Shown here: positions 8,691 to 56,000 of the stretch, one piece after another
How positions within the stretch are numbered: position 1 is the stretch's first letter
How the letters are laid out: each line of letters begins with the position of its first letter
From: Auricularia sp. M13
Taxonomy: Eukaryota > Basidiomycota > Agaricomycetes > Auriculariales > Auriculariaceae
Direction: 5' to 3'
Assembly (NCBI GenBank): GCA_037042915.1
Contig: CM073202.1
Span: 2,356,001 to 2,420,000, forward strand
DNA length: 64,000 nucleotides
The notes under the pieces: generated by a model
Database searches by the model: none
Seen by the model: the letters and a program-made list of their open reading frames with translations, nothing else
Told to the model about the DNA's origin: nothing
Made by a program: the position numbers and the translations under genes

Positions 8691-10647
8691 CGCGGCCCTG
8701 CGTGGGGGAAAAGGCGTTAGCAGCGGACCGAGAGGTTGGACGAAGGCTGCAGACACGGACATGGTGGTACGATGGCAAGTGCGGCGCGGGAGTGTCGGGA
8801 ACTTGCGACGGGTCCGCGCCAGATTTGACTCGGGGAGGAGGCGTGGTGCAAGAAGCGCACCACGTGCACAGCCACGCAGTATCCCGGTTCCAAGACGACG
8901 CGTGGGAATGATGAGTTGCACGTGACCGAAGGATCGTGCTGGGAAATTGCTAGAGAGACGGTCGCCAACTAGCAGGGCTTCATGTGACAGCTAATTCTTC
9001 GCGTTCAGGCCATGCTCGGAACAGAGTAGCCTCAAGTTGAACGTCGTCGGTTGACATCCGGCATGTTTCGAAGCTGGCCCGATGCGTCAGCTATGTATGT
9101 TGTTCATAGGACGAGAACCGCAGTACCTGGACCAGAATGACGTAGCTCACAGCGTGGGCAGCGAAGAACGACGAGGAAAATGTTGTTCGAAGTCCGACGT
9201 CCCAGTCTCTCTTCCGCCTTGCACACCAGGCTGCTGTTCGAGCTAGTGCGCCGTTCTTACGAGTGCACCGCATGCCGCGCGCGTTCCTCCCGATGTCAGC
9301 CTTCTTTTGACTTGGGCCATGGCATTGTCGCTGGGCGCTTGACAACACTATCTACCAGTTCCCAGCTTTTTGCTGTCTTCCATCGCGCACAGGCCCTTTT
9401 AGTTTCTTTTACATTCAACTGCTGTGCCCAATGTTATGTTCCACACCTCAGCGTTGACGAACTGCTCGGCATGCCTTGTAACAGGAGTGTACAAGGCTGT
9501 CTTGGACCTTGCGCAACCGTGCACCTGGACCAAGTTATACGAGATGTGGGCTACTGGCTGATAATACTATCTATCATCTGGCGTCCGCGTCCGACTCGGA
9601 GAGAGACCTGTCGCAGTACTCTGTCCCTGACTGGCTACGCAAGGACTTCGGGCTCTGGTCTGTAGACTCACGCGGATCGACGTGGAGCGTTGACGGCGCG
9701 CGCTGCTGCGCTGTATCGCAGTTGGCTCACTTATCACTGGCCGGAGTGAAAGGATCGCATGGCTGGGTGACACTGCTTTTATCCACTGGCGGCAACGTTC
9801 GCGAAACTGGCTATCTGTCTTGCACGCCGTCACTTACTCGGCCATTCATACCCGTGGGATAAGCTGCTACTTCACTTACTGTAATCATTTATACTGCCTT
9901 GTGCCGCGTGTATGATCCTTCTCGTCGCCTCCGGCCTATCTGCCGTGCTGGACTGCTCATCTGACCTTGGGAGCGCACTGGCAGCTCGTAGTTACGCTGT
10001 CTGTTCCAGCCTGCAGGCCAGACATCATGTCGATGTCCACGTCTATGCCACTGGCAAATATTGCTGTACTGACTTCATACGCAGCACCATGTTTATATGG
10101 CGGAAAGAGCGGGCTCCCGTCGGAAAACTAGAACAGGAGAGCACGGAGCTTCGCAGTGATCATGTCTGTGATCACCGGACACTTGCAGGCCTTCAAGTGG
10201 AGAACGCAGCACGGACGGCTGTCCAAAGAGAGGATGGAACGCGCTTCAGACCGCGGAAATTTGGAATTGCCGCCTCGTCAGGTCAGATTGCCTGACCGCC
10301 TCGCACTGCAAAGCCGCGCAGGCGGTTTGTGCTCCTTGTTACAGCGTCTGAGCGCGCCGATAGCCATCAAGGTGTAAGCTACAGTGTATTGGAGTGTCCT
10401 TCCTGCTGTGAAATATACTGGTCTGGACTCTCAGAGTCGGAGAGTCTGACTCAGATTTAGGAACTCAGTCGACCGAAGGGATCATGAGTTACGAGTGTCA
10501 AATTGGCGGCTGTGATTGGGCGCGAGGAGGCGCGGAGGACCAAGCGCCCGAGCAGGATGTGGCGTGTTGTCGGCCGATCGCGTCATCCGACCGCATCGTT
10601 GGCGTCGGTTGGGCAGCGAGTGGGACGACGGGCTCGCGAATTCAAAG
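8691..10647. other. Long intergenic region, no gene seen
   Basis: About 2 kb lies between the divergent TFIIE-alpha and the PLP lyase. Open frames are short, overlap on both strands and show no recognisable motif. It should contain both promoters. I see no transposase or reverse transcriptase relic and no long repeat. Confidence 0.45.
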
Positions 10648-12285
10648 ATGCAGGATCAATTTTCGTCACCCCGACGCTCTCTCCCGCGCTCGCCCGCCTT
10701 TGGAGACCGCCAGCTGCAGGGCCAGATGCCGCTCAAGACGCCCCTCAGCCACGGCCTCCTCACGCCCGAGGAGAGCAAGTCGCCCGTGAGCGGCCGCAGG
10801 CCCTACAGCTTCGCCACCATATGCGCCACCGTCGACAACCCCGCCCAGAAGGACCAGCACGGCTCCAGCTCCGTGCCCATCTACCAGTCCGCCACCTTCA
10901 AGGGTATCGGCGGCCAGTATGACTACTCGCGCAGCGGCAACCCGACGCGCAGCCATCTCGGTGAGCTCTGCGCTGCCTGCCGCGTCGCTGAGCACTTACC
11001 GCCGTGCCAGTGCACCATCTCGCAAAAATGTACGCGGCCCGGCACGCGTTCGCCGTGTCCTCCGGCATGGCCGCGCTCGACGTGATCACCCGGCTGCTCA
11101 AGCCCGGCGACGAGGTCGTCACCGGCGACGACCTCTACGGCGGCACCAACAGGCTGCTCGTCTACATGCAAAAGCACGTCGGCATCGTCGTCCACCACGT
11201 CGACACGACCGTGTCCGAGTCCGTCATCCCTGTCCTCAACGAAAAGACCGCCATGGTCCTGCTCGAGACGCCCACCAACCCCATGCTCAAGATTGCAGAC
11301 ATTCTCACCATCGTCCTCAAAGTCCGCGAGGTCGCGCCCAACGCCATCGTGGTCGTCGACAACACCATGATGAGCCCGTACTTGCTGCGCCCCTTGGAGC
11401 TCGGCGCAGATATCGTTTACGACAGCGCCACCAAGTATCTCTCTGGCCACCATGATCTCATGGCCGGCATCATTGCGTGCAACAGGGACGACCTGGCCAA
11501 GGTCTGTCTAGCCCCTCTGTTTTCGTGACATTCCTCATTCTGCTGCAGGAACTGGGTTTCGTGATCAATGCGGTCGGGAACGCGCTCTCCCCATTCGACT
11601 CCTTCCTCCTGCTGCGCGGTACCAAGACGCTTGCGATCCGGATGGACCGCCAGCAGTCCACGGCCATGACCGTCGCGCACTATCTCTCGCGGCTCGGCTT
11701 CACCGTCTACTACCCCGGCCTGGTCGACCACCCGGGCCGGGCGCTGCACGAGTCCATGGCCTCGGGCCCGGGCGCCGTGCTGAGCTTCACGACGGGCGAC
11801 AAGGCGCTGAGCGAGCGCATCGTCGGCGCGACGCGCCTGTGGGGCATCAGCGTGTCGTTCGGCGCGGTCAACTCGCTCATCAGCATGCCGTGCGCCATGT
11901 CGCACGCGTCCATCGACCCCAAGGTGCGCGCGCGCGCGGCCTGCCGGAGGACCTCATCCGTCTGTGCGTCGGCATCGAGGACGTGCAGGACCTCGTGGAC
12001 GACCTCGAGCACGCGCTGCTCGAGGCCGGCGCCATCGAGATCGCGCCGCAGGATGCCGGCGCGCGCTATGTGCGCGTCTCCGAGGAGGCCAAGGCCAATC
12101 GCGTTCTGCACGGTCTCGGACTGCAGTCGCCCGTCAGGCTCGCGGTGGAGCCCCTCCCGCGCAAGAAGGAGTTGCGCGAGTGGTTTGTGTCCGCGCCGGA
12201 AAGGTCATCCTGTTCGGCGAGCATGCCGTTGTTCACGGTGTCACTGCTATTGCCGCCTCTGTTGACTTGCGCTGTTACGGCTTGA
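10648..12285 (+). CDS. Cystathionine beta/gamma-lyase-type PLP enzyme (N-terminal part of possible fusion)
   Basis: This is a Cys/Met-metabolism PLP-dependent enzyme, best fitting cystathionine beta-lyase, which converts cystathionine to homocysteine in methionine synthesis. The ATG at 10648 precedes SFATICATVDNPAQKDQHGS. Family motifs are YDYSRSGNPTRSHL, AARHAFAVSSGMAALDVI, ETPTNPMLKIADI and the PLP-binding lysine in YDSATKYLSGHHDLMAG (about 11420-11465). Introns lie at about 10966-11015 and 11502-11548. At about 11924-11940 the frame changes inside a GC dinucleotide run: ASIDPKVRA is in one frame and RGLPEDLIRLCVGIEDVQDL in the next, consistent with one missing base. The second frame has no stop before mevalonate kinase begins; it runs on to VSAP, the residues that normally open that enzyme. 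The listed end is the first in-frame stop in the raw sequence and is probably not the biological end. Confidence 0.85.
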
Positions 12286-13688
12286 CGTCGCCGCGGCATG
12301 ATGGCAAGCTGTCCTTGAACTTGCCGGATGTCGGCGGATTCTACCATGAGTGGGACCTGGAGTCATTGCCGTGGGACGCGGTGACGCGCGTTCGCATCGG
12401 CGATGTGCACCCGTCGGCGCTCGACATTCGTCTCGTCGACGCGATCATGGCGCGCGGTCTGCCCCCCACCTCGCACAGCCGGAGAACAGGCGCATACGCG
12501 AGGCCGTCATCGCTTTCTTATATCTGTACATGTCGCTGCAGCACGGCGACGAGAAGTATGCTTGTTCATGCTCACTCGCAATTTCTTCTCTGACCATTGT
12601 GTTCATTACAGGCCTTCGTTCAATTTCTCCGCTCGCTCAGCACTTCCCATTGGCGCCGGCCTTGGCTCGTCAGCGTCTTACTCGACTTGCGTCGCGACTG
12701 CCCTGCTTTTGCTGCACCAGCGCATCACAATCCCGCCCCAGCCGTACAGCCGCGATCCCATCGAGGGCACGCCGGGCCACGTGCACATCTCGCACGGCGG
12801 CCGCCGCGCGATCCCCACGGAGGCCGCGGAGGAGGTCAACCGGTGGGCGTACGTCGCGGAGAAGGTGCTGCACGGCATGCCGAGCGGCGTGGACAACGCC
12901 GTTGCGGTCTACGGCGGTGCGCTGGCGTTCTCCAAGGGCGGGTACGGGCGCAAGGCCGGCATGGAGGGCATCCAGGGCTTCAAGTCGATGCAGTTCTTGC
13001 TCACGGACTCGCGCGTGCCGCGGGACACGAAGAGCCTCGTTGCGGGCGTGGTACGGAAGAAGGAGGCTGAGCCTGATGTTGTGGACAAGCTGCTTGGTGC
13101 GATACAGAATATCGCGGACGAGGCGCAGCGCGCGCTGGCTGATCCTGAGCTGCCGCGCGAAAAGCTGTTGTGGGTTCTTTCGGTGCGTTCGAGCGGTATC
13201 TTGTCTTCAGGCGCACAGTTGTATTCATATCTGCGCAGGAACTCATCAACGAGAACCACGCGCACTTGAAGGCGCTCGGCGTCTCGCATCCAGCGTTGGA
13301 GACCATCCGCGATCTGACGCAGAAAGAGCCGTTCTCGCTTGCGACGAAGCTCACGGGTGCCGGCGGCGGTGGATGCGCCGTCACGCTCATCCCGGATTGT
13401 ATGTGGCCCTCATTCCTGCGTCGAATGGAATTCTCATTTTCATCTTCCGTAGCGTTCGCGCAGGACGCGCTCGAGCAACTGCGGAAGGCGCTGACCGCGG
13501 AGGGTTTCCAGCCATACGTGACAGCTGTGGGCGGCAGCGGCCTTGGCGTGCTCTCGCCGTACTACGAGGGCAACTACACGCCGCCCGACAGCGAGCACAC
13601 GGGCGAGCTGCGCAAGATGTTCGAGACGACTGCGCAGGACGAGCTTGCGGGCTGGGCGGCCGGTAGAGGACGTTGGCTCTTCGTCTAA
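12187..13688 (+). CDS. ERG12: Mevalonate kinase (GHMP kinase), apparently fused to the upstream lyase
   Basis: Mevalonate kinase phosphorylates mevalonate in isoprenoid and ergosterol synthesis. All three GHMP motifs are visible: GKVILFGEHAVVHGVTAIAA at the N-terminus, RSALPIGAGLGSSASYSTCV (about 12634-12690) for ATP binding, and KLTGAGGGGCAVTLIP (about 13350-13395). MPSGVDNAVAVYGGAL is also typical. The protein ends WAAGRGRWLFV at the TAA 13686. Introns are at about 12557-12611, 13182-13240 and 13400-13450. No ATG lies in a plausible position before the first motif. VSAP (12187-12198) is in the lyase frame while GKVILFGEHAV is in another, so one base appears missing at about 12199. A second offset lies at the C6 run at about 12462-12467, where IMARGLPP is followed out of frame by HLAQPENRRIREAV. 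Confidence 0.88.
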
Positions 13689-13900
13689 ACTGAAATACAG
13701 CAACTGCGACTCCTCATTGGCATTAGGAACTTACATTTAGTTTTACTGTGGCTCCCGTTAGAGTGCCCGGAGCTTTGGATATGTACGAATATAGTTACTG
13801 GGTCAATGCGATTGGCATTGATATGTGGCGTAAAACCCGCTTGCTGCAGGCCGGCAGTCGGACTCGCTTCATCGCTTTCAATACCACTGAGCAACTTTGC

Positions 13901-15383
13901 ATGGTCAGCCCTGCTCACGTCTTCTTGCTCCTCGCAGCGTCATCGTCCACAATGGCCCAACAGCTCAACATGGCCAAAGTCCTCATCTACTCGGCGACCG
14001 CTGGGTATGTTTGTGACGTCTTGACGCCGTCCGGCGCTTATTGACGCGCTCTCGAGTTATCGCCACGAGTCGATCCCAGCTGCAGTAGACGCGCTCACGC
14101 GACTGGGGCCGGCGTCCAACATCCAATTTGACGCGACAGAAGACAAGAGCAAGTTCACGGACGACGCGCTGAAGGTGTACGATGGGGTGCTGTTCATGAT
14201 GAACACCCAGCAAGGTGCGTGCGCTACGCGTCTGCGACCGCTCACTGGGCTCATTACGGCGTGTGTATGCATAGTGCTCGATGACGACGGCGTTGCTGCG
14301 CTGCAGAGATACCTGAACGCCGGCGGCAACTTCGTCGCGGTCCACAGCGCGTCCGACTGCCTGCTCCAGGCCGATTTCTATCGCAGGGAAGTCGGTGCGT
14401 GTCTGTATTTGCTCTCGTGACGCGTCTGACGTCTGCCGAGCTCAGGCGCGTACTTTGACTACCATCCGGCGTTGCAGAACGCAGTGAGTGCGCCTCGCTG
14501 GCAGCGTTCAAGACATATTTCGTCATCACTCAATTCCAACCGCTTGGTAGACGGTGCTCGTCGTCGACAAGGACCACCCGAGCACGAGCATGCTCCCCGA
14601 ACGCTGGAACGTGCACGACGAAATGTTCGTTCGCATGCTCAGCTGCTCTGCAGAGGCCTGCCGCTCATCGGCTTTTGCAGTTATAATTTCAAGTCGGACC
14701 CTCGCTCGGTCGGCGCAAAAGTTATCCTTTCTGTCGATGAATCGTCGTACACCGGTACTTTCTTACTGTACTTGCGCAGATATTGTATCTCTGACCTCTC
14801 TGCAGATGACGGCACGCGCAAATTCGACCAGGGAACACCTCACCCTATTGGTGCGTGCTCTCAGGTTAGCAGGAGCTCATAAGATTGAAGTCCTAGCACG
14901 CGCCTCCAGCTTGGTACCAGGAGAAGGGCGCAGGAGCTGACGAGGGCTCTAAGCTCGTCGGGAGAAGCTGGTACACCGCGCTAGGCCACGACGTCGACAC
15001 ATGGAAGGTCCGTGCCGCAGGTTCCCAAAGGAAGGCTTCCTGAACGCTCACCGCGTCCGCAGAACGAGACGTTCTTGTCCCATGTGATGGGCGGCGTAAC
15101 ATGGGCTCTTGCATCGGGTACTACGCGCGCCTTCAACGCAGATGCGTCTGTAGGCAATAGTGATAGCAGCGCGAAGCCGACGTCTCCGAGGTATGCATTA
15201 TCGTCATTCTTTCTTCCTCGTACGCTTGCTGATGCGAACGTCAGTCCCACGACCGGGGCCTCTGGCGGTGACTCCCAGCAGACGGGAAGTACTCCAGCAC
15301 CAACGGGCTCGAGTCCCCGACGCGCAGGGCTGTCGGCTCTTGGGGCAGCATCATCCATCGTGCTCGCTCTCTTCGGTCTGTGA
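13901..15383 (+). CDS. ThuA-like protein with signal peptide and GPI-anchor signal
   Basis: This is a multi-exon gene. The ATG at 13901 starts a signal peptide (MVSPAHVFLLLAASSSTMAQ), followed by MAKVLIYSATAGYRHDSIPA across the first intron. Further exons give VYDGVLFMMNTQQ, ALQRYLNAGGNFVAVHSASD and later GRSWYTALGHDVDTW and FLSHVMGGVTWALASG. These are the ThuA/trehalose-utilization fold motifs (class I glutamine-amidotransferase-like), found in secreted or surface proteins of many fungi. After the domain come a Ser/Thr/Pro-rich linker and a hydrophobic tail (AGLSALGAASSIVLALFGL), a likely GPI attachment signal. Substrate is unknown; bacterial relatives are linked to sugar metabolism. No frame break was found. 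Confidence 0.8.
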
Positions 15384-20898: not shown

Positions 20899-23800
20899 AT
20901 GCGCGCTCTCGCTCTGGCTGCGCTGGCGGGCTCGGCGCTGGCGGTGTCCAACGGGCTGACGACGGACGTGACGTGGGACCCGAACTCGCTCTCGATTCTT
21001 GGCCAGCGCGTCTTTCTGCACTCGGGCGAGTTCCACCCCTGGCGGCTGCCCTCGCGCTCGCTCTGGCGCGACATCATGCAGAAGGCCGCCGCGGGCGGCC
21101 TAAACGGCATCTCGCTCTACGCCCACCTCGGCCTCATGAACCCCGCGCCGGGCGTCGTCGACTTCGACGGCCTGCGCAGCTTCGAGACTGCTATTGTCGA
21201 GGCGCAGAACGCCGGGCTGTGGGTGACCGCGCGCATTGTGCGTCTTTGACGGGTTGCTTTGCCTGCTAGTGATTCATTGAAGTGTTAATTTATTGCCGTG
21301 TCGGTGCATTCTAGGGTCCATATGTCAATGGCGAGACGACGGGCGGCGGACTCCCCGGCTGGATGATGAGCATAAACGCCAACGCAAGTCCATCTGGATC
21401 AGTCGCCTCACACGACGCTAATGCATTCCATGCAATCCACAGCTGCGCACAAACGACACAGTCTACACTCAGGCTTGGACGCCGTACTGGACCGCAATGG
21501 CCAAGATGCTGGCGAAGTACCAGATCACCAAGGGCGGCCCGGTCATCTTCGTTCAGGTTGAAAACGAATTCGATAACGTGCGTACATTCCCCGAACATAT
21601 ATATCATCGTGTTGAACAGCTGGCAGGGATCGACCCGCGCAGCATATATGGTCCTGCTAGAGCAGTCTCTGCGCGCCAACGGCATTGTGGTCCCCACGAC
21701 GCACAACAACAAGGGCCTGCGCGACATCACGTATGCTTCTGGGACTGGCGCGGTTGATATCTGGGGTATCGACTCCTACCCCGGTAATGGATGCGCGAGC
21801 TCTTGGAGCGACGTCGTGACCAACGTGAGTGCACGGCGCACATCTGAGCCTGAATGTTGACTGACCGTTGATTACTTCAGTACAACGCGTTTAAGAATAC
21901 GAGCGGAAACCCCAACCTGCCTCTATACTCGCCCGAGTTTGTCGGCGGCTGGTTTGATGCCTGGGGCTCGACTGGAAGCTACGCTGCTTGCCGGGTCCGT
22001 ATTCAAACTCTGATACGCTCATGTTCGCGCGCTGACGATGATACCCACAGGCGAAGATCGGGCCTGAGTTCGAGCGCGTCTTCTACCAAGCGCTGTGGGC
22101 GCAAAATGCGCGGCTGATCAACTTCTACATGTACTACGGTGGCACAAACTGGGGCGGCCTGTAAGTCCTCCGAACGTTATCCTTTGAGCGTCGCTCACTC
22201 GTCGACAGTCCCGCGCCAGTTGTTTACACCAGGTGAGGCCGCAAGGTCCACCAACGAGATCTTCGGAGAGCTGACTGTGGGCCAGCTACGACTACGGCGC
22301 GGCCATTCCAGAGAACCGCATGATTGGCGATAAATATAACGAACTGAAGCTCATGGGCCTGTTCCTGCGAAGCGCACGCGACTTCCGCCAGACCGCCTTC
22401 GGTGCGCACTGCCCACGCCGTCCCTATCACCTGCCTTCGACTCACAGTGCTATTTGCAGCGCCTGAGGTCACCACCCTAACTTCCAGCAACCAAATCGCG
22501 ACCGCCGAAATGCGCAACCAGCAGACCGGCGCCGGATTCTATCTCGTCAGGCATACGCCTGCGAGTTCAACGTATGCTCAGCCGCTCGGCTGCCTTTATT
22601 CTTCGGCTGACGACGTCTTCGAATGTTGCAGCGCAACTATCCCGTTCACTCTGAAGGTTTCCACCAGCGCCGGAGCCCTCACGATCCCGCAGACGAGCGG
22701 CGCACAGATCGTGCTTCTCGGCCACGACTCGCGTACCATCGTCACCGACTACAAGTTCGGCTCGTCGCGCGCGCTGTATTCGACGGCTGCTGTGGTTCTG
22801 AGCACGACCATCGACGGGGTGGATTGGCTTGTCGTCCACGGATACCCACAGGCTGATAGCACTTACGAAGTCGTCCTTGCTGGCGCTTCGGGCACTGCGA
22901 CAAGCGCAGGTGACTTTACGGTTGCTACGCGTTCTACATCGGTGAGTTGCTTCACATATCATTGTGGTTTACAACTCACACCTCATAAAGGCTGGTGCTG
23001 GTTTGCTTGCCAGCTTCCGCATCGCTGCTGGGGGAAGGGCATTGCTCTCGGTGGGAACTACCCGTCTGCTTGTTCTCGACACGACTATCGCGAGGACGCT
23101 CTGGGCACCCGTCCTTCCTGGCGCAGGAACTTTCGCGCGTTTCGCAGAGGTCGGGAGCAACGCCACGGTTATGGTTGCAGGACCATCACTCGTGCGGACC
23201 GCCATGCTCTCAGGCTCCCAGCTCGCTCTGACCGGCGACACGAACCGTACCACGACGCTGCAGATTTACGGCCCGCGTTCGCTCACTGGCGTCACGTGGA
23301 ATGGCGTGTCCGTCAGCGTCGCCCAGGACGCGCTCGGCGCGTGGTCCGGGACGCTCGATGGCCCGTCGTCTGCCGCGCTCTCTTTTACTCCTCCGAAACT
23401 CTCCGCATGGAAGTTCAAGGACTCGCTGCCCGAAGTGTCGGCGGGCTACGACGACTCGCGCTGGGTAGTGGCCAACAAGACGACCACGTTCCTCACGATG
23501 CAGGCCTTCCCGCGCGACACTGCCGCCCTGCTGGGCGAGCAGGATTACGGCTTCATGACGGGCAACGTCGTGTGGCGCGGCCATTTCACTGCGAAGGGCA
23601 CGGAGACTGGCACCTTCCTGGGCATCAACGGCGCCCCGGCGTTCGCGGCGAGCGTGTATTTGAACGACGTGTACCTTGGTGCCGTCACATCGACGAGCAG
23701 CACCGATGCAGATACGAAGAACGTGACGCTCGCGTTTCCGCAGACGGCTTTGCGCACGGGAGACAATGTTGTCACGGTGCTGAAGGACAATATGGGCTTG

Positions 23801-24527
23801 AACGAGTGGAGCGGCACGGGCGGTATAAGCAGGCGAGGGGGATCATTGGGTACCAGCTTCAGGGCGGCGCGAAATTGTGGGCTCTTTGACGGCTTCGTGC
23901 TAACGCACGTAGACTGACTGGTGACTTATCGCAGCTCGACGTGGAAAGTACAGGGCAACCTTGGTGGCAACACTGCGTATCCGGACAAGGTCCGCGGTGC
24001 TCTGAACGAAGGCGGCTTGTTTGCAGAGGTGCGTGGCGTATTGGATACATCTATATCCATTCAGCGTGTCCTTACCCCACCTTACCCCACCTTTTTAGAG
24101 AGCCGGTTGGCATCTGCCTGGCTTCGACGACTCGAAGTGGGACGCACGCACGCCCTTCCAGGGCATCTCGAAACCCGGCGTTGGCTTCTTCCGCACGACG
24201 TTTGATTTGTCCGTCCCCGCCGGCCACGACGTCGCCCTGAGCTTTGTCTTCTCAGGCGGCGGGTCGACGCGCGTGCAGCTCTACGTCAACGGGTGGATGA
24301 TGGGCAAATACGTCGCGAATCTCGGCCCGCAGACAGTCTTCCCGGTGCATGAGGGCATTCTCAATTACCGCGGGAGCAACACCGTCGCGGTGTCGTTGTG
24401 GGCGGTGGGCAACGCCACCGCGGACTTTTCGATCAAGGATCTTCAGTTGAAGGTCGACTCGGTCCTGCGCGGTGGCGTACCGGTCGAGGTGAACAATCCT
24501 GCGTGGTCTCCTCGTGATGCATTCTAA
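20899..24527 (+). CDS. Beta-galactosidase, glycoside hydrolase family 35
   Basis: This enzyme removes terminal beta-galactose from plant cell-wall polysaccharides outside the cell. The ATG at 20899 starts a signal peptide ([16 protein letters not shown]). The catalytic barrel shows [36 protein letters not shown], the acid/base in VQVENEFDN (about 21553-21580) and the nucleophile in [13 protein letters not shown] (about 21927-21965), then [12 protein letters not shown]. Downstream beta-sandwich domains follow (for example [20 protein letters not shown]), and the C-terminal jelly rolls include [20 protein letters not shown]. About ten short introns are present. One frame offset lies at about 23822: NEWSGTGG is followed out of frame by [17 protein letters not shown], consistent with a missing G. 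The next exon ([12 protein letters not shown]) joins cleanly through a 58 nt intron, so the gene is probably intact. Confidence 0.93.
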
Positions 24528-32334: not shown

Positions 32335-35084
32335 ATGCTTGGCAAGGCCGCGTTTGTGCTCGCGCTTGCCTTCAATTTTCTGCTCATCGCCCAGCACGGC
32401 TCGAACTCTGGCGTCGCCCATGTCGCCCAGCAGCGCATACGCGTGCGCTCGCTGCCGCATGCGCTGTTGACTGCTGCGCGCGCCCAGCCAGACGAGGTGC
32501 GTGCATGTCGCTTGCGGTCCCTAGCGCCGGCTGACCGCCTCCCAGTGCGCGCCATTGAGCGTGCCGGCGGGCGAGCAATGTCGATATGTGCACGAACGCT
32601 GCACGGCGCACCAGACGTCGCTCGACATCCCGTACCTGCGCACGTATTTCTGCGCGTCGACGGCGGCGCGGCCTGCGATCTTCGGGTTGCTCGTCGTCTG
32701 GCTCGTCTTCCTCTTCTCGTTCCTCGGCATCACCGCCTCCGACTTCTTCTGCCCCAACCTCGCCTCCATCGCCCATGTCCTCGGCCTCGACGAGACCGTC
32801 GCCGGCGTCACCTTCCTCGCCTTTGGCAACGGCAGCCCCGACCTCTTCTCCACCTTCTCCGCCATGAAGGCCGGCTCGGGCAGCCTGGCCATCGGCGAGC
32901 TCGTCGGCGCCGCGTCCTTCATCACCTCTGTCGTCGTGGGCTCGCTCTGCATCATCCGTCCGTTCCAGGTCCCGCGGGTATCCTTCCTGCGCGACGTCGG
33001 CTTCTTCACGACCGCCATCTCGCTGCTGCTGCTTTTCTGCATAGACGGCAGCATTCACCAGTGGGAGGCGGGTCTACTCGTGCTCCTCTACGTCACATAT
33101 GTCGTCGTGGTCGTGTTTGGAACGTGGTGGGAGAAACGCCTCGAGCGCAAGCACCAGCGCGAGCAGCTCATGCGCGCCCAGTACCGCGACGACGACAGCG
33201 TCACAGACATCGAGCCCTACCACGACGATGTTCCGGAGCCCAGTGAGTAGTATCCCGCCCGCAGATTATCTGATTGCTGAAAGCACCCGCAGACACGCTA
33301 GCAGTCACGCCTACTAACAGACCGCGCGCGCAGTCCAACCCAGCGGCGATGCGACGCACGTCCTCGACCCAGAGCCTGTCGCGGCCCAACTTCCTGCACG
33401 CAGGCGCATCCATCCCCGCGCGCCTCTCTTCCTCCGAAATCCTCGAACCCAATCACCAGCCCTCGCAAAGCCAGCACCAGATGCCCTCGTTTTCCTTGCT
33501 GGGCGCGCTCGAGTTCCGCGACGTGATCACATCGCTGCGGGCGCAGTCGAACGTTGCGGCCCTCAATGTCTTCGAGGGCCCCGTGTCGCCATATGCGGGC
33601 GGACGATATGGGCGCTCGCGAGCGCTCAGCCGGAGTGGCGCGTCGTCGCTGACCACACCCTCACGGCATCACACGGGGGACTCCGCTGCGGTGGACCCAT
33701 GGGATGCAAGCTTGGGCCTTCCATTGAGCGAGCGACGGTCGTTCGACAGCGACGCACCCTCGCCCTCTCAACGCCAGTCGCCCGTCCTGGCATTGGACCC
33801 CGCTGCGATACAGCCGTCGCCGAAGGTTCCGCCGGCGGTGCCGCACATAGCGATAACGGCCCCGCCCTCGCCGACGCTCGTGCAGCCGCAGCAGCTCGAG
33901 AACGGCGCGGGGAAGAGCGCGCGCCCTGCGCGCGGGGCGCGGTACATCGTGCAGCGCGTGTACCGCACGCTCTTCCCGTCGCTGCAGCACTTCTCCGCCA
34001 AGTCGTGGCTCGGCATGGTCGCGGCGGTGCTGAGCGTGCCCGCGCTGCTCGCGCTGACCGTCACGCTCCCCGTCGTCGTCACGCCCGACCCGCACGAGAT
34101 CCCGAGGGAGATGGACATGGCGTCGCCGAGTGCTGATAGAGTTCTCGAGGGGCGCTTGGTCGACATCGAGGAGGCGTCGCATGAGGGGAGCGGGAGCGGC
34201 GGGGAGAATGAGGTCGGGATGATGGCGGACTCCGTGGCGCAAGGCCTGGCGGAGGGCTTCCAGGATATCTTGTATGCCGAGGAAGAAGTCGTCGAGGCGA
34301 TGCATGGCGTGCAGTATAGTCGCTGGCTGATGGCCGCGCAGTGCATACTGGGGCCTATGCTTTGCTGGCTTGTCTTGCTCTGTGAGTTCTCCTCGAAAGG
34401 CTCGTTTCATTCTGATGATGCTGTCTCAGCGCGACGGCCACACGCGCTGCTCTACCTGCTCGCGACCACAGTGGCCTCGATAGCAATAGCTATCCTGGTC
34501 GTCATCTTCTCAGACAAGGGGAACGACCCGCCGCGCGCAATGCGCGGTGCTTCATGGGCTTCGCCATCGCGGTCGTGTGGATCATGGCGATCGCAGACGA
34601 GGTCGTCGCAGTCTTGCAGGTTGGTTTTCTTCTTCACACCCGCGCATCCTGCTGAGTGCTTGCCCTTCTTCTCGCACAGACGTTCGGCCACATCTTCGGC
34701 CTCTCGGATGCGATCATCGGGCTCACCATCTTCGCCGTGGGCAACAGCATGGGCGACTTCGTCGCGGACCTCTCGGTGGCGTCCTTCGCGCCGCTCATGG
34801 CGTTCGCCGCATGCTTCGGCGGGCCGATGCTCAACATCCTGCTCGGCGTCGGGCTGAGCGGGACGTACGTCATCGGGCTGCAGGAGGCCGGCGGGCCGTA
34901 CCGCCTCGACTTCAGCACGACGCTGCTCGTCAGCACCGTCGGCCTGCTCTCGCTGCTCGTCGGCACGATGCTCTTCGTGCCGTGGAACGGGTACATGCTC
35001 ACCAGACGGTGGGGGCTGTTCCTCATCGCGTGCTACGTCGTCATCATGACCATCAACATCGTCGTTGAGGTCAAGCACCTGTAG
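32335..35084 (+). CDS. Cation/Ca2+ exchanger (NCLX/CCX-type, CaCA superfamily)
   Basis: This is an integral-membrane antiporter with two Na_Ca_ex repeats. The ATG at 32335 gives a signal sequence (MLGKAAFVLALAFNFLLIAQ). After an intron at 32498-32545 comes a Cys-containing loop and the first membrane block, with alpha-1 repeat VTFLAFGNGSPDLFSTFSAM (about 32809-32868). A long Ser/Pro-rich cytosolic loop of about 300 residues follows. The second block has SWLGMVAAVLSVPALLALTV and alpha-2 repeat IIGLTIFAVGNSMGDFVADL (about 34716-34775), ending at the TAG 35082. GNGSPD and GNSMGD carry the ion-binding acidic residues. In fungi such exchangers act at vacuole, ER or mitochondrial membranes; location is not decided by the sequence. 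One frame offset at about 34545 separates DPPRAM from CFMGFAIAVVWIMAIADEVV, consistent with a missing G. Confidence 0.9.
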
Positions 35085-50045: not shown

Positions 50046-53000
50046 ATGGAGGTCGTGTCCAGCAACGTCAACCAGATCCAGGTCCCGCAGGCTGCGGGCC
50101 AACCCAGGCCGTTTGTTGCGGTCCCAGAAATTCAAGCTGAAGTAATCATATTTTGTCTGATTTTTTGACAATATATTGACCAGTGTTCAACCAGTTTCTT
50201 AGGCTGAAGCAACTCAATAAACACGCGCATTTACGCGTCTCGCCCTACCCGCTCGACAACAAGGCGTTTCAAGGGCCCGTAGCTCTCTTTGCGGTTTCTA
50301 CATCCAAAGCCTGCTTTGCCTCTGTCATCCGGACTGCCGATGCGGCCACTACTCAACAATTTGGTCTGTATTTCATGGATTTACGCGTAATACACGCGTA
50401 TCTGACTCTATTCCTTCAGCTATCGCGCTGGGTAGTCTAGCGAGTCTTCGTCAGGCACTCAGCACGGGCAAAGCGGAAGACAACCTCATTCCGTTTACGC
50501 CGCAGAAAACATTCGACTGTGGTGCCGAAAAGCCCGTCATCCTCAAGTTCGCAGCCAACGACGAGCGGCTTGTTGTGGGCTTTGAGCAGGGCCCTGTGCT
50601 CGTGTTCGACGTGAATGCCTTCGTCAACTCTAACGAGGTTCGTGTTCGACCAACGGTCCCGAATGACACTGACTCGTTTCCCCGTGTTCAGCGGCCAACG
50701 CCTATGATATTCCAATCTGACGCCTCGGGATATCCACGCTCTATCCACCCGAATCCTGGAGACCATCCCGAACTAGTCGCCGTACTTCGCGGCGTGTATG
50801 GACAGGATCGTGGACTATATGTCGAAATACTCGACGTGATGAACCACAAGATCGTAGGCGGGTGGTTCTCTTCGACGAGCCTCGATGCTATGCCCACCTC
50901 AGGTGAGTTCGGCATGCCTTTCCCTTACGCAGTTTCTCAAACATGTACAGTTTCTTGGTCTGCCAGAGGAAAGCAGATTGCCATCGGCACTCATAGTGGT
51001 GACATACTGCTGTACACTCCGCAAGACACGTCCATGCTCGCTCTCAAGGGCCACGTTCCGCGTCCTAGCGATCCAGCCCTGGCAGGCTGCTGCGCCTTCG
51101 CCATAACATGGCTTTCCAATACGGCGTTCCACGTCATTTACGCCAACCCTCGCGCTCTTGCCCGGTGGGATCCTGAAAGCGAGGACCATCCCGACTACCA
51201 TCACCGCATCGTCGTACACGACAAGACCAACCCAGGAGAATTCGCGCTCAGCGATAATCCATGCACGCCGTTTGGCGCGAAGCGCTTCCTGGTCCCTTGA
51301 ACGTCGTCCTGAAGAACTGGGGCACCCTTCAGTTCCTCATCTTCGCAGGTGACGGGCCTTCGTCGGATATCGGCGCCATAGGCTGCGTTGGCGATAAGTG
51401 GGGCACGCTCTCGCTCGACGAGACGGCACGCGCTACGCTCCCGCTGACTGGGGACATGGACGAGAGCGCGCTCTTCGGGCTCGAGCTGGACCTGACATCG
51501 CCTGAACCTGTCGATATCAGCGCCGAACAGGCCGACGACTCGCCGCCGCTTCCTCCGGCTCCCATTCTGCTCGCGTATACGAGCGAGGGATGGATAGACG
51601 GCTGGCACGTCATCGCGCAGAAGGAAGGACAGTACCCCGGCCTCCTTGCCGCGCCGGGCTCCAGCCAGATGAGCACGAAGCCCATTACGCCTCCCCCTGC
51701 GGCAGCAACTAGCGCGTTCGGCTCCGCCCAGCAGCCGTCGCCATTTGCGGCCGCGCAGCCTGCTGCTGCAGCGGCAAAGACGACTTCGCCATTCGGTGCT
51801 CCGCAGCCATCTGGCGCATTCGGAAGCGCAACCCCCACTCCGACGTTTGGCTCGACAGGCTTTGGCAGCGCTGCTGCGCCTACCTTCGGCTCGACGGGCT
51901 TTGGGAAAGCGCCGACTCCGGCCGCGCCAGCCTCTGCCTCAGCCTTCGGCAGTGGAGGTAGCGGCGGGGGCGCTTTTGCAGCATTCGCGAACAAGCCCTC
52001 GGCCTTCGGCGCGCCAGCAAGCACGACTCCCAGTCCCTTCGCCGCCGCTGCCGCCGCTGCGAAGTCGGGAGAAACAAAGCCAGTATCTGCATTCGCCCCC
52101 ACTCCCGCTTCCGCAGCGCCCACATTTGGCAGCACAAGCGCTCCATCTGCTGGCCCGACTTTCGGCCAGTCCAGCTTCGGCTTCGGAAAACCGGCAACCC
52201 CTGCTTTCGGTCAGACGGGCTTTGGGTTCGGGCAGCCCACAGCCGCGGCTGCGGCGCCGTCTGCTTCAACTGCGCCTGCAAGCGGCGGCGGGTTCGGTGC
52301 GTTTGCCAACAAGACCCCGTCCTTCGGCGCAGGTTCAACTCCGGCTGCTGAGCCTTCGAAATCCGCGACGCCGGCGGTCCCGGCTGGTGCTGGTGGCGGA
52401 TTCGCTGCGTTCGCGAGCAAGCCTCCCGCGTTTGGCTCCGGTTCTGGTTCTGCTGCGCCCCCTGCCACCGACGCAGCTGCGAAGTCGAGTGGACCCTTCA
52501 GTGCGTTCGCGAACAAGACACCGTCCTTTGGATCTGGATCGACTGCGCCTCCTGCGACCGACACTGCAAACTCGAGTGGTCCCTTCAGCGCGTTCACGAA
52601 CAAGACGTCTGCCTTTGGCTCCGCCCCTCCTGCAACGGAGGCGCCGAAGTTTGGCGGCCTTGCTGCCCCGACGTTCGGTGCTACATCAGCGTTTGGTCAG
52701 CCTCAAACGAACGTCGCGCAACAGCCCAAGGCGCCGACACCCGTTCCCGCAGCAGCAGCAGCACCGAACGCGGAATCCCGAAAGCCACCTGCACTGCGTT
52801 CCGAATCGCCGCCATCGTCAGACGACGAACAACCAAAGCCCAAACCAGGCGCGGGCGCGACCTCCAGTCTGGCATCCTTTGTCAAACCCTCGTCAGCCTT
52901 CGGTGCGTTCGGCGCGAGCAAGGACGGCACGCCGTCGCCGTTTGCGCTGGCAGCGTCGGGCAGCACGGACAGGGCTACCGTTGCGACGTCTGGCTTCGGT

Positions 53001-56000
53001 CAGCCATCTGCGTTGGGAGGGGGGATAAAGGCCATGGCTGGAACGGCGTTTGGGCAGACTTCTGCGCTCGGGAGTTGGGGAAAGCCGCCCGCGCCAGCTG
53101 CTGCCCAGCCGAAGGCGGCTGAATCCGTGTCGGCGCCCGCTGCTGGAGGTGGCTTCTCGGCTTTCAGTGGCTCTGGCGGATTTTCTGCATTCGCTACTGG
53201 TGCAAAGACCGCGTTGTCTGGCGATGCGGCGAAAGGCTTGTCCGATAAGAAGAAGGACGAAGCGTCCGCCGTATTTGGAGACTCGTCCTCGTCCAAGTCT
53301 TCGACTTTGTTCCAGTGGTCCAATCGACGGCAGTCGCAGCCAAAGCCTGCTGAGGACCGCGACTCCGACTCAAAGAGGAATCCGACCTCGGTGGGTTTGG
53401 GGCGTTGAGGCTTGAACTGGGAGATGAGAAGGCAGAGTCCCCCAAAAGCGACGACGGAGCGGGCAAGTCCACTGCAGCGGTGCCTGCCTCCAAGTCTGCG
53501 CCTGCGCCTGCCACACCGGTCAAGGATCCATCTCCCGCACCGACGCAAGGGAGTTCAACACCGACGGCGACTCCATCGAAGGAAACTCCAGCGCCAGTGA
53601 CTCCTGCAGCTTCCTCAGCTTTCGGTTCGTTTGCCAAGTCAACTTCGCCCTTCGGAGCGTTTGCGGCCAAGGACGGTGCTACTCCCATCGCATCAGCCTT
53701 TGCTCCGCAGGCCAGGCAACGACAACGCCCAAGAAGGATGACGAGGCGCAGAGCACGACTCCCTCGACAACGCCTGCGTCCGGGCCCGTCTTTGGAAAGA
53801 GTTTCTTCGGGGAGAGCAACGTGTTCGGCAAGTCCAGCACCCCGTCGCCTGCTCCGGGAAGCGCGTTTTCCGCATTCGCGACGCCTGGAAAGCCTTCTTT
53901 GTTTGGGCAGACACCGGCCAAAGATGATGGGTCTGGTGAGCAGGGTGCGGGAGGAGACTCTGCGAAGGAGAAGGATGCAGGAGCCTCCACTACACCTGCG
54001 AAGTCGCCATCCCTGCTTGATCATCTTGGGCCGGCATCGTCCAAGCCGCCGTCTCTGCTCGCGCGCATGGGACCTCCTCCGCCTGTGAGAATCGAACCGT
54101 TACCGCCGGATAGCGACGACAATGAAGAAGAGGGCGAGGAGGGCGAGGAGGGCGAACTTCCGGAGGGTGAAGAGGAGGAGGAATTCGACAGCGAGGAGGA
54201 ATATGAACTCGAGGTATGTTTACTATCTCCTTGAGCGGTTATCTCCTCATTTAGCACCTTTTCAGGATGTCGAAGAGGAAGACGAGGAGGAGGAAGGCGA
54301 GGACAATGATGAAGAGCCTGCAGAATCGCCGACCAGGGTCAAGCAAAAGGCCAAATCTGAAGACCCCCCAGCACCAGGATCGATTTTCAAAATCCCTGAG
54401 ATCAAGACGACGAAACCTGAACCTGCACGGGCCGCCAGTGAACCCGCGTCACCATTCAAGGTCCCGGCCCTGCCGACCGTGAGTACGCCTGCGAAACCTT
54501 CGCTATCCGGCCTCGGGCGTCCTGGTCTCGGCGGCGCACCCGCGCGCAGCTCGCCGCTCGCTTCCAATCCGCCAGTCACCGCTTCCGAGGGCAGCGCCGG
54601 CGCTGGTGTCGCTCAGCCAAAGCACCAGTTATTGATCTTTCCCATCCTCCCAAATCCGCAATCACGCCGTTCCCTGGATTCACGGATTCTGCGAAAAAGC
54701 CAGTCCCGACTTTCTCTGGATTCCCTGCAGCCCCCATGACGCCCGCTTCTGCCAATCCTCCAGCAGGCGGCAAGTTTACGCCTGCTCCTTTCCCTGCCAG
54801 TTCCAGTCCCATGCCTCCACTATTTGGCGATTCGAGTCGCAGTGCGGCACCGTCACCAGCAACATTCCCTGGTGCGGGGCCCAAGCCGGCATTTAGCTTG
54901 AGTCCAGCTACGTTCCCGGCCGTGTCGTCGCCGTCGCCGCCGCCTCACAGCCCGGCGTCTCAGTCTGTGGTACAACATCCTGTTCCCGATGAGACACCTC
55001 TCCAGCAACAGTTCGCAGAGATCTACCTCCAAATGACACGCGAACTGGAGCAGGTCTGTAACCCTTTAATTCTGCATGTCTTGATATACTGACTTGTATG
55101 ATAGCTAGGAGCTGATGCGCGCAAATGGGCGCAGCAGCGTGTCGACCTTGCTCAGGCCCGTGGTGGGCGGACACCGGCAGACCTGAGAAATCCTGAGAAA
55201 TGGGGTGTGGGCGATCTGGTTGCATTCCAACAGATTATCAAGAACTTCGAAAAGGAAGCTATGGGATTGAAAGACCATTCGCTTGAAATCTCAAAAATAT
55301 TTGCGGAGTTGCAGAGTTTGCTGCTTCAGGGTATGGTTAATATCTCTCTCATACCGGCGTCCGGAAACTGATCTTTGACTATAGGTGAGGTCAAGAAGGA
55401 GGAGATGGTGCGATACGCTCGGGCGAACAAGGATCCGGAGTTCAAGCACATGATCAGCGTGCGAGGATTGGGTCCGGAGCAGGAGGAAAGCCAGGCCAAG
55501 TTGCGCAAACAGATACAGGTTCGGGATTTCTATCTACGGAACGGCGGCAATGTGCTAAACAATTGCATCCAGGCCGTTGGAGATCGCGTGCAGCAGCTCG
55601 AAGACGTTCTCTCCAGCCTTCAACGCAAGCTCGAGGCTCATAATTCTGGGCGATATCGCATCGAGTATGTTCATCACATATTCGGACTCAATTGGTTTTC
55701 TGACTCAATTCAAGGGCTCCAACGCTGGATACCATCAACCGCACGTGTAGAAACATCGACATCGCTCTCGAGCAACGTGCGATGGAGATCTCGCAGCTGG
55801 CCGATCGAGTTGCCAAACTTCCTCTCACCAACGCAGCCGCTCCCGCAAACGTAGTCTCGACGTCGAACGCGGAGAAGAAACACGCGCGAGCGGCAAGTAT
55901 CGCGCATGCCAAGGCTGCGGATGCGGCTCTCGCTGCGGAGCACAGCGCCGAACGGCTGAAGAACATCCTCAACCGTGCGCGGACGGAGCCCATCCTCAGC

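Follow-up and report, generated by a model that had tools for sequence, protein, structure and literature searches.

A probable metC-MVK fusion gene in Auricularia sp. M13, read across three apparent breaks in its frame

The metC-MVK fusion in published basidiomycete genomes

The joining of a cystathionine lyase to a mevalonate kinase in a single gene has been known in basidiomycetes since 2012, and the arrangement discussed here is a known one. Liu et al. (2012) named the fusion metC-MVK, and the available part of their paper reports it from 12 basidiomycetes, with the exception of L. bicolor, with a mean length of about 886 aa. It is the sole K00869 homologue in those basidiomycetes, and seven of the 12 species share a conserved 16-residue insertion within the kinase (PMC3342255). 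In the same year, a study of how the rice blast fungus makes methionine described, in its accessible text, the same extension of STR3 in every basidiomycete examined other than Postia placenta, together with the statement that a stand-alone mevalonate kinase was not found in basidiomycetes (PMC3468542). The fusion is also present as a unigene in mycelia of Pleurocybella porrigens (PMC3720577), and in Lignosus rhinocerotis the fusion gene encodes 918 aa (PMC4129116), as given in the available portions of both papers. In ascomycetes, the same two enzyme families are represented by Str3 and Erg12, but these are encoded by separate genes that are not apparently clustered, according to the accessible part of the rice blast paper (PMC3468542). 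The genome paper on X. dendrorhous, in its available text, lists ERG12 and leaves the fusion unmentioned (PMC4393869), which was counted against a fusion reading. The reason for the fusion and its function were still being studied at the time of the first report (PMC3342255), and its significance remained to be determined according to the authors of the second (PMC3468542), as far as the available text of each goes. Among the titles listed in searches of open-access papers, none announces a functional test of metC-MVK.

The window analysed here is the whole stretch of 64,000 nucleotides from contig CM073202.1 of Auricularia sp. M13. One of its genes, whose parts are collected in Table 1, encodes the same enzymes in the same order as the metC-MVK of Ganoderma lucidum, Lignosus rhinocerotis, Pleurocybella porrigens and other basidiomycetes. 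The predicted fusion protein has about 922–928 aa, a range that comes from how residues at the frame breaks are counted, and it stands beside published lengths of 918 aa and, on average, about 886 aa. Like the published copies, it contains the only mevalonate kinase found in its genome. Its kinase is longer than solved mevalonate kinases by about 16 residues, counted by eye, which is the size reported for the insertion in seven of the 12 metC-MVK species; the comparison was one of size only. No difference from published metC-MVK was found beyond three frame breaks that resemble consensus errors. Because the published basidiomycete fusions agree with this gene in partners, order and approximate length, the fusion reading is favoured. 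We put at about 0.96 the probability that the locus is basidiomycete metC-MVK (STR3-ERG12 in yeast names), with one transcript and one protein of this size. The original prediction of a single protein with both functions, its frame interrupted at the joint by a consensus error, is supported by the many basidiomycetes from which the same fusion has been published. Its authors did not know of a described fusion of this pair; two reports of it date from 2012 (PMC3342255, PMC3468542, as far as their accessible text shows).

Table 1. Parts of the metC-MVK gene and breaks in its reading frame, in positions of the window
Feature	Position	Strand	Content or basis
Exon 1	10648..10960	+	Starts with ATG at 10648; translation and GT..AG boundary
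Exon 2, lyase core with SATKYLSG motif	11011..11501	+	Translation; PF01053, 426.7 bits (joined lyase piece)
Exon 3, first part	11549..12197	+	Remaining lyase domain, then tail of ~55 residues to KKELREWF-VSAP
Frame break 1, (GC)n run inside lyase	~11926..11941	+	Protein alignment unbroken across the change
Frame break 2, joint VSAP/GKV	12195..12199	+	GKVILFGEHAVVHG follows at 12198, shifted by one base
Exon 3, second part	12198..12555	+	N-terminal part of mevalonate kinase (GKVILFGEHAVVHG...)
Frame break 3, C6 run inside kinase	~12461..12469	+	
Kinase exon	12612..13182	+	GLGSSAS and SGVDNAV
Kinase exon	13239..13398	+	KLTGAGGGGC
Last kinase exon and stop	13453..13688	+	

Identity of the two halves

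Both halves of the gene were scored as translated pieces, in which the frame breaks (one in the lyase piece) were filled with X. The N-terminal half was identified as a cystathionine beta-lyase by TIGR01329 (546.8 bits, with a cut-off of 487.5), and the lyase piece, 481 residues long, is matched as far as residue 429. Matches to PF01053 overlap in two frames around the frame break of the lyase. The C-terminal half was identified as a mevalonate kinase by TIGR00549 (211.7 bits, with a cut-off of 163.05), and it contains the GHMP kinase domains PF00288 (37.5 bits) and PF08544 (37.4 bits). Since both halves score above curated equivalog cut-offs, these assignments support the reading of the locus as metC-MVK. 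The kinase part is interrupted by three introns, and its stop codon is at 13686–13688.

The best solved relatives by sequence belong to the same families as the two halves: the cystathionine beta-lyase 1ibj for the lyase (E 7e-111) and the mevalonate kinase 1kvk for the kinase (E 7.5e-69). The alignments of the kinase with 1kvk and 2r3v begin at its own second residue. Unlike the fusion, each of the chains 1ibj, 1kvk and 2r3v (464, 395 and 396 residues) holds one enzyme; we take them to come from a plant, the rat and the human, respectively. The signature motifs are intact, namely SATK in the lyase and GKVILFGEHAV, GAGLGSSAS, SGVDNAV and KLTGAGGGGC in the kinase. The lysine of SATKYLSG is presumably the PLP lysine of the lyase, and the four kinase motifs were read as signatures of mevalonate kinase. 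With gaps counted by eye, the stretch between GLGSS and SGVDN exceeds that of 1kvk and 2r3v by about 16 residues and that of 8tfo by about 13. Peroxisomal targeting of the fusion protein was considered and rejected: the C-terminus RWLFV is not PTS1-like, and a PTS2-type pattern had no match in the first 80 residues.

The assembly that was searched comprises 52.1 Mb in 14 contigs. A search of it for 5.8S rRNA, meant to show where the fungus belongs, gave no hit. Five places matching PF00288 were found in it, and the fusion locus is the only mevalonate kinase among them. Two of the other four match homoserine kinase and diphosphomevalonate decarboxylase, both over the cut-off; the remaining two are fragments under the cut-off whose best matches are galactokinase and phosphomevalonate kinase. 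For PF01053, nine other places were found. Five of these were compared with TIGR01329 as four sequences, two of the five yielding the same fragment, and the best score among the matches listed (25 of 42 rows for the shared fragment) was 271.1, below the cut-off; the comparison covered these five places, the other four being weaker. Two O-acetylhomoserine sulfhydrylase-like genes lie on the same contig, in opposite orientation, at G000:C3:584400-584966 and C3:2326189-2326755, and their translated stretches of 194 residues are identical.

Several other genes in the window were noted in passing. A ThuA-domain protein lies just 3' of the fusion gene at 14025–14420 (PF06283, 68.7 bits), a large beta-galactosidase at 22348–23914 has the domains PF10435, PF13363 and PF13364 in two frames, through either an intron or a further frame break, and a protein of the sodium/calcium exchanger family is found at 32525–33247 (PF01699, 100.6 bits). 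A nucleoporin propeller of the NUP159/214 type (50221–51297; PF16755, 68.9 bits) lies within 50221–54234 and is followed by an FG-rich stretch that probably belongs to the same gene; near 53375 and 53710 the frame of this nucleoporin-like gene shifts, and by eye neither place shows an intron. Elsewhere in the assembly, G000:C7:3374248-3417068 holds five near-alike sets of HSP70 matches that recur about every 10.25 kb and resemble five large units arrayed in tandem, or else a duplication made in assembly.

Frame breaks and the joint between the halves

Translation bore out the original description of the joint, in which the lyase frame stays open from KKELREWF into VSAP without a stop and GKVILFGEHAV follows one base off. 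That description gave one break, at the joint; two further breaks are found, one inside the lyase, whose third exon keeps its first frame to about 11931, and one inside the kinase (Table 1). The sequence as written is thus not one open frame, and a single frame requires all three breaks to be errors. Three breaks fall within about 540 bases, which looks dense. No intron is hidden at the breaks, because protein alignments to solved relatives run unbroken across them. An intron at the joint in particular was rejected, since the VSAPGK motif is complete with every residue present.

Errors of the assembly consensus are the likeliest cause of the breaks, because the frame also shifts, with no intron, in chaperone genes at other places of the assembly and, as judged by eye, in the nucleoporin-like gene of the window. 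Two PF00118 chaperonin genes (L015 and L017) and an HSP70 gene (L016) show such changes. They come from five loci (L015–L019) that were chosen because neighbouring matches sat suspiciously close in different frames; three of the five proved to be contiguous frame breaks, L019 is an ordinary intron by eye and L018 looks intron-rich. Having been picked for looking suspicious, these loci prove that such breaks exist in the assembly and do not give their frequency. The shift at the joint is likewise most likely a consensus error.

From about 11811 to 12262, in a G+C-rich stretch, each of the three forward frames is open, which makes the open frame at the joint weak evidence by itself. Codon usage was examined with a model trained on this very gene with the tail left out. 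Over the tail (12019–12195), the lyase frame scored +18.5, against -22.4 and -31.0 in the other forward frames. The control was not clean, since one reverse-strand frame reached +7.7 over the tail, and in its first half the reverse frame scored +11.1 versus +11.6 for the lyase frame. As originally predicted, no ATG suits a separate kinase: between 11900 and GKV, the sole ATGs are at 12053 and 12068, and both are out of the kinase phase. The DNA of 12100–12400 was found at one place in the genome, and the search gave no further copy of the joint.

Competing explanations and the meaning of the fusion

The original prediction regarded a collapsed intergenic segment as the main alternative, and the clustering of the three frame breaks gives this idea some footing, as the local consensus may be poor. 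Two separate genes would then have been run together when the segment between them was lost in assembly. Such a loss must end at the VSAPGK motif of the kinase. The relatives in print are fused, and the length here fits theirs. The repeats listed in 10600–13800 form 11 direct families and 15 inverted pairs, none longer than 25 bases, and include no direct family with copies close to the joint on both sides; but nothing would remain to be seen of a segment that was lost. Because the same fusion, in the same order and at about the same length, has been published in many basidiomycetes, we consider a collapsed segment very unlikely.

Two other accounts take breaks in the written sequence as genuine, and we regard both as extremely improbable. 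A decayed pseudogene with real frameshifts would match the presence of three breaks in about 540 bases, but its signature motifs are intact, breaks of the same kind occur in three chaperone genes, and no other mevalonate kinase was found in the genome. Fungi need mevalonate kinase for sterols. The other account takes the shift at the joint, which is present in the sequence as written, to be real, and has the kinase made by frameshifting or from a start inside the message. Against it, the stretch from 11900 to GKV holds no ATG in phase with the kinase, and the breaks within the lyase and within the kinase would have to be explained separately.

The preferred reading remains a metC-MVK fusion, whose product is most likely bifunctional, its two active sites being independent of each other. 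A single transcript would encode both halves. The N-terminal PLP-dependent cystathionine beta-lyase is predicted to convert cystathionine to homocysteine, and a tail of about 55 residues would link it to a C-terminal mevalonate kinase of the GHMP type, which would convert mevalonate to 5-phosphomevalonate. The two active sites would operate independently on one chain, with both halves active.

With this locus, one more genome would be added to those that carry the conserved basidiomycete fusion. It is a tentative and rather doubtful idea that the fusion couples the supply of methionine and homocysteine to isoprenoid flux, for example through control of one half by the other or through a shared assembly; if it were true, sterol synthesis, which uses S-adenosylmethionine, would follow the sulfur status of the cell.
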